A DNA stretch of 37,372 nt from a virus. A program made the translations under genes and the position numbers. The notes beneath the pieces were generated by a model. The model did no database searches. It worked only from the letters and a program-made list of their open reading frames with translations, and was not told where the DNA came from. The stretch lies in the IMG/VR virus record IMGVR_UViG_3300033153_003398, positions 1-37,372 of that record; one strand, given 5' to 3'. Positions within the stretch are counted from its first letter, which is position 1; the number at the start of each line of letters is the position of its first letter. Shown here one piece after another: positions 115-37,372 of this stretch.

Positions 115-2118
115 ATTGCCACTGAGGATATTGCTGATGGTACAGATGGTAAAATAACTTACTTTGGTAAGGTACGTGGTATTCAGACAGATGGTGCTAA
201 CTACAGCGAGACGTGGACAGATGGTGAAGTCCTTTGGATTGATGGTACAGACACAGGAGAACTAACAAATGTGACACCAACGATAGGTATCCGTCTACCT
301 ATAGCTTTTGTTATTTTTGCTCACGCTTCTAACGGAATAATTGCAGTCAGGTCTACGTCAGGACACTCTATGGATGAGATGCATGACATGGATATGACAG
401 GTGTAGCAGTTAATGACACTATTATCTATGATGGAACTAACTGGATAAATGATGGTGGAGGTATTAGAAACTTCTTTAATGGAACATTTCAAGAACATTT
501 CGATGCTAAGGTAACTTCAGATGGTGCTACTATCACTATGAGTCTCGAACAGAGTGGAACAGGTGACTTGTCTATGCAGTTTAGTTCTGGTAACTCTCAG
601 TTAGATTGTACACCAGCAAAAACAATCGCTCTTACCGCTGGTACAGATTCTTCACCTCAGTCGAACTATATTTATATCCTAGAAAGTACTGGGACTTTGA
701 CTAAAAGCACCTCAGCTTGGCCAGGAGCAGAACACATTAAGATTGCTTACTTCTACGTACAATCAGCTGGAACCGTACAGACTTATGGAGCTTTGGTAAA
801 TCAAAACTGGAATGATGGTTCTAGTAACGGAAACGATACCGGACACATTGCTCACATCGGACAATGGATCCGTTCACAAGGAGCTACCTACTTCTCCGGC
901 TGTGACGGTGGAGGTACTTCAGGCTACATAACACCTTACTCTGGTGGAGGTACATTCCAGATAAACGCTGGTGTTATCGCTCAGATGCACTCACACAGTT
1001 ACGCATCTAAGGACACAAGTGGTTCTGATGTTGGTATTTGTGCTAATTACCCTAGTGATGCATACAAGGAGGTGACTGACTTGAATGACATGTTAGTTGA
1101 TAGTACTGGTAGTAGTCTAACTGGTAAGTACTTCAACATTATTATCGGTGGTGTAGCTAACAAGGGGGGTGAGTATTCACCACTTATGATTAAGCTACCA
1201 GCTGGTAGTTACAACAGCTCATCCAACGCTATTGACGATGTAGACAGCTACGATGACTACGCAATGCCACGAGAGTTCAACAAGGAGAGTTCTACTGGCT
1301 TCTTGATAGCTCGTATAACCATCCGTAACCAGAGTGACACCACCTTCACAGTGATGAACACTCAGGACTTGAGAGGACAGGATGCAGCCGTATCAGGTGG
1401 TTCAATCGGAGGAGGCACAACAACAGACTTCGCAGATAACCAGTTCACTATCTACAACAACACAGACGCGACTAAGGTGGTAGACTTGGACGCTAGTGCT
1501 ATCACTACAGGTAACACTAGAACGATCACGATGGCAGACGCTGATGTTGATTTGGCTGAAGTAGCTGTAAACACAGCTAAGACTGGTGTGACTAATGAGA
1601 TTAGTAACGTAGTAGAGGACACTGCTCCAGAACTAGGAGGGGACTTAGATACTGATGGTAAGGACATCATCTTAGGTGATGCTGTTACTCATACATCTAG
1701 TATCCTACTTAATAACTCAGCTCTAAACGATGAGACATGGTCTGGTATCACCATCATCGGTACAGCCGGAGCTACTCTAGCGGTCGGTGATGTATGTTAC
1801 TTAGCTAGTTCTGGCAAGTGGTTACTTAATGACGGTATCTTGGATGGTACTGACACAGGCTTCGATAAGAAGTTAGGTATTTGTGTTGACGCTAGTACTG
1901 ACACTAACCCTACAGAGATTCTATTGAACGGTGTGATAGCTTCAGCAGTCTTTCCAACTTTAACAGTAGGCTCACCAGCTTACCTATCAGACACAGCCGG
2001 AGACATTATTGTAGCTCAACCTAGTACGACAAATTTCGCCATTAGGAAGCTAGGAGACGCTGTGAGTGCGACAGTGTTCCACTTCAACCCAAGTAATGAT
2101 GTAATTGTACACGTATAG
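1..2118 (+). CDS. Tail fibre protein, 3' part (5' part at 36587-37258)
   Basis: This is the C-terminal 705 codons of a 929-residue protein whose start lies at 36587; the join is in frame (224 codons before it). The ATG at 25 is internal. The protein is rich in Gly, Ser, Thr, Asp and Asn with many short beta-strand-like stretches and no transmembrane segment, as in phage tail fibres. The N-terminal portion carries the fibre-type phrase GTVPMTGDIDTDGNGINNVD just before the join. Around residues 700-720 a second similar phrase (ELGGDLDTDGKDI) recurs. Probable role: host-surface recognition at the tail tip. It ends in TAG, four bases before the next gene, and is the start of a run of virion genes leading to lysis. 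The receptor-binding end cannot be assigned. Confidence 0.85.
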   Translation, partial: QIDDGTPVMAVGTLGASGRIKVSPMVGSDIANAKLFLGIATEDIADGTDGKITYFGKVRGIQTDGANYSETWTDGEVLWIDGTDTGELTNVTPTIGIRLPIAFVIFAHASNGIIAVRSTSGHSMDEMHDMDMTGVAVNDTIIYDGTNWINDGGGIRNFFNGTFQEHFDAKVTSDGATITMSLEQSGTGDLSMQFSSGNSQLDCTPAKTIALTAGTDSSPQSNYIYILESTGTLTKSTSAWPGAEHIKIAYFYVQSAGTVQTYGALVNQNWNDGSSNGNDTGHIAHIGQWIRSQGATYFSGCDGGGTSGYITPYSGGGTFQINAGVIAQMHSHSYASKDTSGSDVGICANYPSDAYKEVTDLNDMLVDSTGSSLTGKYFNIIIGGVANKGGEYSPLMIKLPAGSYNSSSNAIDDVDSYDDYAMPREFNKESSTGFLIARITIRNQSDTTFTVMNTQDLRGQDAAVSGGSIGGGTTTDFADNQFTIYNNTDATKVVDLDASAITTGNTRTITMADADVDLAEVAVNTAKTGVTNEISNVVEDTAPELGGDLDTDGKDIILGDAVTHTSSILLNNSALNDETWSGITIIGTAGATLAVGDVCYLASSGKWLLNDGILDGTDTGFDKKLGICVDASTDTNPTEILLNGVIASAVFPTLTVGSPAYLSDTAGDIIVAQPSTTNFAIRKLGDAVSATVFHFNPSNDVIVHV

Positions 2119-10165: not shown

Positions 10166-10316
10166 TGTAATGTAAGTCTATTAAGTTTCTTATCACTTCA
10201 CTTTGGGATTGTTTCCATCTATTAGCTAGCTTCTGCAGTCGTACCGCTTGTCGTCTGGTTAGCTTGAAGGAGGTTTTGCGATCGTAGATCATGGTGTGAT
10301 AGGGTGCTTTAGTCAT
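10155..10316 (-). CDS. Ribbon-helix-helix (CopG/Arc-like) regulator, 53 aa
   Basis: The core KTSFKLTRRQAVRLQKLANR followed by a helix with SQSEVIRNLID is the classic RHH pattern: a beta strand (TSFKLT), helix 1 (RRQAVRLQKLANRW), a turn, and helix 2 (SEVIRNLID). Such proteins dimerise and bind operator DNA through the strand pair. It sits inside the leftward operon and overlaps YopX by eight bases and the zinc-ribbon gene by 11. It is a candidate repressor for the inverted repeats at 11206-11234, 5683-5702 or 15702-15732. Confidence 0.7.
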   Translation of the reverse strand: MTKAPYHTMIYDRKTSFKLTRRQAVRLQKLANRWKQSQSEVIRNLIDLHYNEQ

Positions 10317-10662
10317 TAAGTAGTTCTTTATTCTCGTAAATGTTTCCGATTACTTCTGTATCATCATCAATCCATTCACCTAAGGTCTCTCCTCTTGATT
10401 TAGTTTCCCCAACTTTCCAAAAGTCGATAATGTACTGTGCTGTCTCTGAACAGTACTCAACGTAACCTATTTCACTTTCATCATCTAAAATATCCCCCTC
10501 AAAAATCTCCTTACCATTCTTATCGTCTAATGCTGTGTATTGCATTGGTACAAACCGCTCATTACTGAAGAAGTCGTGTCCGGCTATGTTCTGCTCTTCG
10601 GTAAGTTCAAACATATACTTCTCTTCATTATCCCACGCTCTAAATTTTATTTCTCGTTGCAT
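10309..10662 (-). CDS. yopX: YopX family phage protein
   Basis: I choose the Met at 10662 (MQREIKFRAWDNEEKYM), which is where this family begins; the longer frame adds 11 unrelated residues overlapping the previous gene. The 117 residues show the YopX signatures IKFRAWD, MQYTALDDKNGKEIFEGDI and VIGNIYENKEL in order. YopX proteins are common in phages, form large oligomers, and have no settled function. TGGAGA is 6 nt before the ATG and may serve as a weak ribosome-binding site. Confidence 0.85.
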   Translation of the reverse strand: MQREIKFRAWDNEEKYMFELTEEQNIAGHDFFSNERFVPMQYTALDDKNGKEIFEGDILDDESEIGYVEYCSETAQYIIDFWKVGETKSRGETLGEWIDDDTEVIGNIYENKELLND

Positions 10663-10802
10663 AGTTGATTCTCCATTACGTTTACTGCGTTCCATTGTGC
10701 AGTAGTGCCAATAAATTCTAGCTTCTCTTCCCAGTACTCAGCTCCATTATCAACCGTTAGGGTGAGTAGGCTGAGGCGAGGTAGTAGTTCGTAGTTATAC
10801 AT
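10647..10802 (-). CDS. Hypothetical small protein, 51 aa
   Basis: MYNYELLPRLSLLTLTVDNG... 51 residues, mixed hydrophobic and acidic, overlapping the YopX start by 16 bases. It fills the gap between the YopX and 57-aa genes exactly. No domain is recognised. Confidence 0.5.
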   Translation of the reverse strand: MYNYELLPRLSLLTLTVDNGAEYWEEKLEFIGTTAQWNAVNVMENQLCNEK

Positions 10803-14155: not shown

Positions 14156-14191
14156 AACTTTTATATATGTTTTTAAATACTTATTAATCTG

Positions 14192-14639
14192 TCAGAGACA
14201 GAGTGTAGGAGGCAAGGATTTGCCGAGACTGGGTCGGGTCAAACATACGAATGTGCCCAGCTACCTAATTACTCGTATAGTCACCTTGCATAGCACGACC
14301 TCGGTGTCCATTGGCTTAACCGTAGTGCCCCAATAGTCCTGTGTGCGTCTACCTATTCCGCCACTCCTACACTCTACTTCCGACTGATGGTGGGCTAGAG
14401 TCGAGTTTGGCATCTAGAATACCTAATGAAGTACCCGACAACTCCGACTATAACCAACCATCCGACTATAACCAACCATCGTTCTGGGGTTACACCCCTT
14501 CCAACCATCCTGGCCAGACTAGTACCCACGAGAGTCGCGGCTCATGGGGACTGTCTAGCTTGGAGCTGTCTCTAAACTAAATAGTAGGGGGGTTGATTTC
14601 CTACTACAGGTCACGCATTGTTACCTGCTTACTTATACT
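14192..14639 (-). ncRNA. Large structured RNA candidate, about 385-450 nt
   Basis: This 485-base gap holds no credible gene and, read on the minus strand, has dense complementary helices. A closing helix AGAGACAG/CTGTCTCT joins 14566-14573 to 14194-14201. Stacked on it is an 11-bp helix GAGTGTAGGAG/CTCCTACACTC (14364-14374 with 14201-14211). Others are GCTAGAC/GTCTGGC (14553-14559 with 14513-14519), CCCATGAG/CTCGTGGG (14541-14548 with 14525-14532), GGGGT/ACCCC (14494-14498 with 14486-14490), CTAGA/TCTAG, and an H-type pseudoknot: ATACGA/TCGTAT (14273-14278 with 14245-14250) interleaved with CTGGG/CCCAG (14256-14260 with 14229-14233). A 19-nt stretch (TGGCGGAATAGGTAGACGC, 14345-14363) is almost identical to a tRNA-Leu D-arm. 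Known phage giants such as GOLLD or ROOL are possible relatives, not established. Confidence 0.65.
14444..14479. repeat. 18-bp tandem repeat, two copies
   Basis: CCGACTATAACCAACCAT repeated exactly twice in tandem within the structured RNA region. On the minus strand each copy gives GATGGTTGG, which can pair with CCCACCATC at 14386-14394, so the copies offer alternative helices. Confidence 0.8.
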
Positions 14640-14640
14640 A

Positions 14641-36586: not shown

Positions 36587-37372
36587 ATGAGCTACACAGA
36601 TGATAAAAAACCAAGTGGATTAACAGTACTAACAGCTTTAGCTAGTGATGACACTATTATTGTGGGAGACACTTCTGATGCTAATGAGGTTGTTAAAACA
36701 ATCACTAAAGCTAACCTCGAGGGAGATATAATAGTAACTGCCTCACAAGTTTCTGATTTTGATACTGAGGTTACTAATAATAGTGCGGTAGCAGCTAACA
36801 CTGCTAAGGTTTCATATACTGACGCAGCTAAGGTTGCCGGAATCGAGGCTCTAGCAGATGTAACTGATGCTACTAATGTAGCGACAGCTGGGGCTGTGAT
36901 GAACACTGGTAATGAAACAATAGCTGGTGTTAAGACCTTCTCAGGCTCTCCAGTGGTACCAACTCCAACTACAGACCTACAAGCAGCCACTAAGAAGTAT
37001 GTGGATGATAATGCTGGTGGTGGCTCAGGTGACTTCAAGGCTGACGGAACAGTACCGATGACAGGTGATATTGATACTGATGGTAACGGTATCAACAATG
37101 TAGATGTATTAGACTTCGACCTTACAGCTGGAGCTTCTGTCGGACAAGGTCAAATGGCTTGGAACGCTGATGAGGAGACTGTAGACCTTGGACTGAATGG
37201 GGCTGTTCTACAGATGGGACAGGAAGTTCACTATCATGTTCGTAATGACACTGGTTCACAGATTGATGATGGTACACCAGTAATGGCAGTCGGAACTCTT
37301 GGAGCGTCAGGACGGATTAAAGTATCACCAATGGTGGGGTCTGATATCGCTAACGCTAAATTATTCTTAGGT
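36587..37372 (+). CDS. Tail fibre protein, 5' part (continues at position 1)
   Basis: The true start (MSYTDDKKPSGLTVLTALAS) is here. The N-terminal region (1-135) is helical and beta mixed with NNSAVAANTAKVSYTDAAKV, then a Gly-rich hinge (DDNAGGGSGDFKADG) and the fibre repeat motif GTVPMTGDIDTDGNGINNVD. The N-terminus probably attaches to the tail and the part after the join forms the distal fibre. The last 114 bases duplicate the window start, so the unique portion is 36587-37258, 224 codons. Confidence 0.88.
   Translation, partial: MSYTDDKKPSGLTVLTALASDDTIIVGDTSDANEVVKTITKANLEGDIIVTASQVSDFDTEVTNNSAVAANTAKVSYTDAAKVAGIEALADVTDATNVATAGAVMNTGNETIAGVKTFSGSPVVPTPTTDLQAATKKYVDDNAGGGSGDFKADGTVPMTGDIDTDGNGINNVDVLDFDLTAGASVGQGQMAWNADEETVDLGLNGAVLQMGQEVHYHVRNDTGSQIDDGTPVMAVGTLGASGRIKVSPMVGSDIANAKLFLG
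37259..37372. repeat. Terminal direct repeat, copy 2 (circular overlap)
   Basis: Exact copy of 1-114. Removing either copy gives a 37,258-bp circle with an intact tail-fibre gene. Confidence 0.95.

Follow-up and report, generated by a model that had tools for sequence, protein, structure and literature searches.

A structured RNA in a gene-free interval of the phage genome

The window (by which we mean the whole stretch of viral DNA analysed, 37,372 nucleotides) is a 37.4-kb IMG/VR virus record that carries a direct terminal repeat of 114 bases, at positions 1-114 and 37259-37372, and it is therefore probably a complete genome. An earlier note had drawn attention to its longest interval without a credible gene, and we likewise find none at 14156-14640 on the minus strand. 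That strand of the gap folds better than dinucleotide shuffles (z = -3.4, versus -1.0 for the plus strand), bearing out the minus-strand structure described there; the GC content of 14191-14640 is 50%, compared with 40% genome-wide.

The significant core is 14204-14370 (minus strand) rather than the whole of 14192-14639, and the conserved unit is a tRNA-like domain of ~80-210 nt instead of the single ornate RNA of ~450 nt first proposed. The supposed closing helix, ~380 nt across, comprises only 8 bp (14573-14566 with 14201-14194); chance alone would give about 1.1 helices of this kind, and it is in competition with the 3' end of a 12-bp helix. The latter, originally described as a helix 174 nt across, is perfect (14375-14364 with 14211-14200), and none like it arose in 30 mononucleotide shuffles. 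The exact 18-bp tandem repeat reported in the gap is located at 14445-14480, within an upstream hairpin-rich segment (14381-14640, minus strand; z = -3.3 versus shuffles); no relative of this segment was found in 136 loci, and for that reason we do not assign the sequence above 14380 to the tRNA-like RNA.

Anatomy of the tRNA-Leu-like domain

The whole conserved unit is 167 nt long (14204-14370, minus strand, as are all features below) and has the fold of a tRNA acceptor, D-arm and T-arm, as established by covariation among its relatives. It matches R1, the covariance model of the family (acceptor, TG, D-arm, insert, ATG/T-stem and UGCAAAU T-loop), over its full length at 71.6 bits (E = 2.4e-19), a score that is partly by construction since R1 was built from 68 sequences that include the window. 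The acceptor helix, supported by both covariation and sequence, pairs GTAGGAG (14364-14370) with CTCCTAC (14205-14211); AGAGT extends it to 14375, so that the 7-bp helix of the family becomes 12 bp in the window. An A at 14204 occupies the discriminator position (A73) and is followed by CTCT rather than CCA. T8 and G9 (14363-14362) precede the D-arm, GCG-GAATAGGTAGA-CGC (14345-14361), which is identical to that of tRNA-Leu; the D-arm match already recognised from the sequence, GTGGCGGAATAGGTAGACGC at 14364-14345, stands, being a 23-nt exact match to phage phi3T.

In place of an anticodon arm there is a 55-nt insert (14290-14344, with T48 at 14290). An H-type pseudoknot had been proposed for the RNA, and we find one in this insert, with S1 formed by 14336-14330 and 14314-14308 and S2 by 14329-14325 and 14296-14292 (anchored search, p = 0.02 versus dinucleotide shuffles). 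The 6-bp T-stem, also supported by covariation, pairs GCAAGG (14284-14289) with CCTTGC (14212-14217). The T-loop is split (14218-14283), T54 and G55 lying at 14283-14282 and C56 A A A T at 14222-14218, whereas relatives without an insert have TGCAAAT. The statement that no T-loop exists thus does not hold: GCAAGGTG (14289-14282) and CAAATCCTTGC (14222-14212) make up a T-arm with 59 nt inserted in its loop, and that split is why it was overlooked.

The 59-nt T-loop insert (14223-14281) runs from ACTATACGAGT to CTCGG, and about 24 relatives share the same insert ends; in RNA form the shared insert is GACUAUACGAG...CUCG, common to twenty-odd relatives. Its stem, CGAG (14275-14272) with CTCG (14227-14224), is present in 18/18 aligned rows and never varies, and so has no covariation support. 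Judged by these motifs, the window phage is of the T-loop-insert subtype of the family. In the T-loop UGCAAAU the U55 of tRNA is replaced by G, and the acceptor and T-stem together amount to 13 bp, compared with 12 in tRNA. The conclusion that the RNA lacks CCA and a proper anticodon arm and is not a working tRNA is upheld, and ARAGORN finds no tRNA in the window.

Discovery and distribution of the family

A blastn search of phage records with the gap returned mostly D-arm matches, which were either true tRNA-Leu genes or loci left uncalled by ARAGORN. The four non-tRNA loci (phi3T, Listeria phage LP-101, Hujiaoplasma zrk29-2 and Latilactobacillus TMW 1.1386 P1) share an acceptor helix, a tRNA-Leu D-arm and a T-arm with TGCAAAT replacing the usual TTCRANY, the TGCAAAT loop lying outside the blastn match by which they were found; at the position of the anticodon arm they carry mutually unrelated inserts. 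Scanning IMG/VR with the pattern GTGGCGGAATAGGTAGACGCAC-N-GGTGCAAATCC gave 33 loci, none of which (0/33) ARAGORN called a tRNA at that place, and a wider pattern gave 58 further viral loci, among them the interrupted-T-loop subtype, GGTG-ACTATACGAGT...CTCGG-CAAATCC. With this interrupted motif alone and the D-arm left free, 24 loci were recovered, and a tRNA-Leu-like D-arm, sometimes changed, lay upstream every time.

A scan of GTDB genomes added 13 species, from Weissella, Enterococcus, Levilactobacillus, Psychrobacillus, Fictibacillus, Lachnospiraceae, Erysipelotrichaceae, Acidobacteria, Sabulitectum and others, and an R1 search of 399 Bacilli species gave a match in 10; in Clostridia and Acidobacteriota, R1 found no non-tRNA carrier beyond the genomes on which the searches were centred. 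An exact 34-nt D-arm pattern had no match, and relatives sought in IMG/VR via the flanking protein and the helicase yielded none. After removal of near-duplicates, the family has 83 non-redundant members in unrelated phages and prophages.

A search against Rfam models and a covariation analysis of homologues had been suggested as checks for the locus. Rfam gives nothing credible in the region, either at the gathering score or at E <= 10; a group I intron in tRNA-Leu has no Rfam match even at E <= 10, tmRNA has no match by Rfam or ARAGORN, and neither GOLLD nor ROOL has a match at the gathering score in the window and some three dozen carrier loci. The structured non-coding RNA is absent from all Rfam 15 families, and Rfam 15 places no family at the positions of the family members. 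In the open-access literature, preprints and most subscription journals being outside the scope of the search, no description of the family was found.

Covariation and the covariance model

The acceptor and T-stem of the 83 non-redundant relatives covary very strongly across the 68 members that were aligned. The patterns left the acceptor and most of the T-stem unfixed, and the independent evidence for the domain is covariation across members other than the window. All seven acceptor pairs change on both sides (97% paired), as do four of the six T-stem pairs (99% paired); overall, 98.4% of acceptor and T-stem cells are paired, with 277 compensatory, both-side cells versus 80 in shuffles and a covariation score of 0.653 versus 0.161. 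Sliding the partner strand by 1 to 3 bases lowers pairing to 38-48%.

The tRNA tertiary positions U8, A14, A15, G18, G19, U48, U54, C56 and A58 are kept and show little or no variation across the alignment; in the D-arm and T-loop this conservation is partly by construction, since the pattern scans fixed both. The D-arm is invariant in most relatives, most searches having fixed its sequence; where it was not fixed, the D-stem changes from GCG/CGC to GTG/CAC (L120 and L126). Family members score 41-85 bits with R1 and the genome matches found by R1 rather than by patterns score 49-85 bits, while true tRNA-Leu genes reach 22-45 bits. Among the R1-found genome matches with the T-loop read (L151 and L153 left out), position 55 is G, with the exception of A55 in L152. 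At the acceptor end, CCA is present in 1/83 relatives, the discriminator is A in 39/82 and base 1 is G in 34/82; these last two frequencies indicate that normal acceptor-end recognition is not under selection, and such variability at the discriminator and base 1, together with the missing CCA, argues against aminoacylation.

We therefore regard it as nearly certain (a probability of about 0.95) that the window RNA is a member of a previously uncatalogued phage family of tRNA-Leu-like RNAs, with an acceptor, the elbow of D- and T-arms and the core tertiary positions, but without an anticodon arm, CCA or U55; a variable insert, in many cases pseudoknotted, takes the place of the anticodon arm, and in this subtype a second stem stands in the T-loop.

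Variable inserts

The anticodon-region inserts are 20-130 nt long and mostly unrelated in sequence between phages. An unanchored pseudoknot search gave p <= 0.05 in 10/38, and it was on this account rerun with the second helix tied to the position directly before T48. Such an anchored helix, its 3' strand ending there, has p <= 0.05 in 29/83 members, where ~4 are expected, and together with a helix upstream it often makes a pseudoknot. No recurring anticodon-stem halves were found around the insert in the family; there is no Leu anticodon stem-loop, the insert being differently structured, and ARAGORN calls no tRNA in the window or the 33 relatives.

In several members with inserts of ~90-120 nt (L063, L069, L071, L092, L096, L102 and L117), the terminal TGCAAAT T-arm is often accompanied by an internal hairpin of the canonical T-arm type (e.g. 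GTGGTTCGAATCCAC). A different T-loop insert in the same place, with the ends GGTGACGCATCCC...GGGCAAATCC, occurs in L070 (about 428-600, plus strand), a copy that adjoins tRNA genes and lies upstream of an abiF RNA (RF03085).

Genomic context

Gene calls around the relatives are crude; by these calls the nearest genes are co-directional in 63/79 on each side, the remainder being partly due to spurious short ORFs. In many cases 0-15 nt separate the start of the RNA from the stop codon upstream, and it is often packed between two genes. The neighbour-gene tally shows no fixed partner gene; the families vary by phage and include late regulators, sigma-like factors, methyltransferases and HNH nucleases, and in the absence of a constant partner, cis control of one gene is unlikely. 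The proteins of the window have only scattered relatives among other carriers, which indicates that the RNA is conserved far more widely than the phages carrying it. One of them, a YopX-domain protein (10309-10695, minus strand), has relatives in many RNA-carrying loci (L072, L120, L103, L043, L035, L017, L080 and others), a co-occurrence tempered by the fact that YopX is common in phages.

A tRNA gene is found within 1 kb of only 10/82 relatives, sometimes 2-6 nt away. Three tandem copies, 5 nt apart, stand within tRNA clusters in each of L031 (2363-2779, plus strand) and L020 (11362-11854, minus strand), and the first copy in L031 begins 2 nt after a tRNA-Met; arrays with such short spacers, one of them this close to a tRNA, imply tRNA-type processing. 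In both loci, two of the three copies have extra canonical T-arms (GGTTCGA...) inside the insert. In Firmicutes prophages, a second tRNA-like sequence of 60 nt lies ~100 nt upstream of the RNA (L024, 3817-3876, plus strand; L026, 1100-1159, minus strand; L012, about 485-550). It has an acceptor, a D-arm and a canonical T-arm without an anticodon arm; ARAGORN calls none of these sequences, and those of L024 and L026 score 45-47 bits with the Rfam tRNA model.

Of the SPbeta-like phages, phi3T, BUCT082, BUCT083 and, in degenerate form, SPbetaL1 carry the module, and SPBc2 and SPR, whose flanks align, lack it; this gain and loss as a module fits an accessory element acting in trans. The SPbetaL1 copy (L162, 486-623) has a degenerate D-loop, AAAAAAGTAACC, in which G18 is lost, and is apparently decaying, other phages of the clade having lost the module entirely. 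In Listeria phage LP-101 (L011, 412-837, plus strand), the RNA lies between the Rfam rli62 and mcrA RNAs and is flanked by a RinA-type regulator and an HNH endonuclease; since rli62 has been reported as a Listeria sRNA, expression data for this locus may already exist.

Relationship to known RNAs

The family resembles bacterial and phage tRNA-Leu in its D-arm sequence, the tertiary positions from U8 to A58, the G53-C61 pair and the 7-bp acceptor, but differs in having a 20-130 nt insert and no anticodon arm or CCA, in position 55 being G (A in one member) and in its 6-bp T-stem; ARAGORN leaves it uncalled, and true tRNA-Leu scores far lower with R1. YrlA, a bacterial Y RNA (RF02553), is likewise a non-coding RNA with a tRNA-like module, for which a role as tRNA mimic or decoy has been proposed, untested there (PMC7790460). 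RF02553 has a match in 0/9 records (the window and eight relatives), and no Ro60 gene is among the top neighbour families of the carriers. Like the tRNA-like domain of tmRNA, the family joins an acceptor and T-arm to a long insert replacing the anticodon arm, but it has no tag reading frame and no CCA, and its D-arm is of the tRNA-Leu type. The tRNA-like structures of plant viruses stand at the 3' ends of RNA genomes and many are aminoacylated, whereas the present RNAs are internal genes of DNA phages and lack CCA. What is common to the two is viral tRNA mimicry with pseudoknots (PMC4810234). By analogy, the family would work most like other tRNA-mimic noncoding RNAs.

Possible function

An RNA without an anticodon arm cannot decode codons, and it probably acts on other tRNA-handling machinery. 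RNase P, the L1 stalk, T-boxes, RNase Z and CCA enzymes all dock on the elbow of tRNA (PMC4810234); because the mimic keeps the elbow and drops the anticodon, occupation of a machine that grips the elbow is the simplest reading. We propose, with somewhat less than even confidence, that the RNA is transcribed within phage operons, would be freed as a discrete molecule by the host nucleases that mature tRNAs (RNase P, RNase Z or 3' exonucleases) and may act in trans as an elbow mimic; expression, processing, trans action and target are all inferred. Candidate machines would be RNase P or a further maturation enzyme, the ribosome, or a defence protein directed at tRNA, and the variable insert could supply host- or target-specific contacts. 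In the subtype found in the window, the T-loop insert would lie on the outer face of the elbow, where it could keep RNase P or the L1 stalk from docking; such a change to that face speaks against a pure RNase P decoy. Counting against the proposal are the variable acceptor end, the 13-bp acceptor and T-stem, and the small number of relatives near tRNA genes (10/82).

Alternatively, the fold could be cis-acting punctuation, a cleavage site for RNase P or RNase Z in a polycistronic phage mRNA that sets ends and stability, the excised RNA being functionless. In its favour is the tight packing among co-directional genes, with a stop codon 0-20 nt upstream and the next ORF often beginning 15-30 nt downstream, but a minimal acceptor/T-arm hairpin would suffice for such a role, leaving the conserved D-arm, the structured insert and the tandem copies in tRNA arrays unexplained, and the clean absence from SPBc2 and SPR also disagrees with it; we consider it unlikely. 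We give equally little credence to an anti-defence decoy, in which a tRNA mimic with no anticodon to cleave would titrate a tRNA-targeting abortive-infection nuclease or a tRNA-sensing defence. The module-like gain and loss among SPbeta-like phages would suit it, but the RNA lacks the anticodon loop that most such nucleases read, and a PADLOC scan of the neighbours found only methyltransferases among the top families, with no association with anti-defence genes.

A multimeric structural RNA of the GOLLD or ROOL kind, a kinship suggested in the earlier note, is very improbable: those RNAs are also phage-borne, structured and pseudoknotted and sometimes lie near tRNAs (PMC12286853), but they are much larger and differently folded, the conserved unit here being only ~80-210 nt, and neither family matches the window or the some three dozen carrier loci. 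Still less probable is a tRNA-Leu gene that has decayed or bears an intron, i.e. a pseudogene or one spliced to a real tRNA; the D-arm is identical to that of tRNA-Leu and removing GACTATACGAG...CTCG restores GGTGCAAATCC exactly, yet strong purifying covariation across many phages, the lack of recurring anticodon-stem halves, the replaced U55, the missing CCA and the lack of a group I intron match all oppose it. Finally, an attP core copied from a host tRNA-Leu gene, which would account for an exact short match to a host-type tRNA segment, can practically be dismissed, as the match is a D-arm within a covarying fold whose acceptor and T-stem vary freely, and no integrase was found among the window proteins examined, a subset of the ORFs.

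Returning to the elbow mimic, the RNA may represent, a suggestion we again make with rather less than even confidence, a new class of trans-acting viral effector RNA spanning several bacterial phyla, in which a stripped tRNA elbow would serve as a universal handle for docking to a conserved host machine and the anticodon region (here also the T-loop) would be swapped for interchangeable effector modules. Noncoding RNAs that mimic tRNA have precedents in tmRNA, Y RNAs and plant RNA viruses. A phage strategy both new and in broad use would be represented by a covarying DNA-phage family that retains the elbow alone and gives up decoding. It is a common phage RNA that tRNA gene finders and Rfam 15 have missed, and as its carriers include genetically tractable systems (B. 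subtilis phi3T, Listeria LP-101 and lactobacillus prophages), its function is directly testable.
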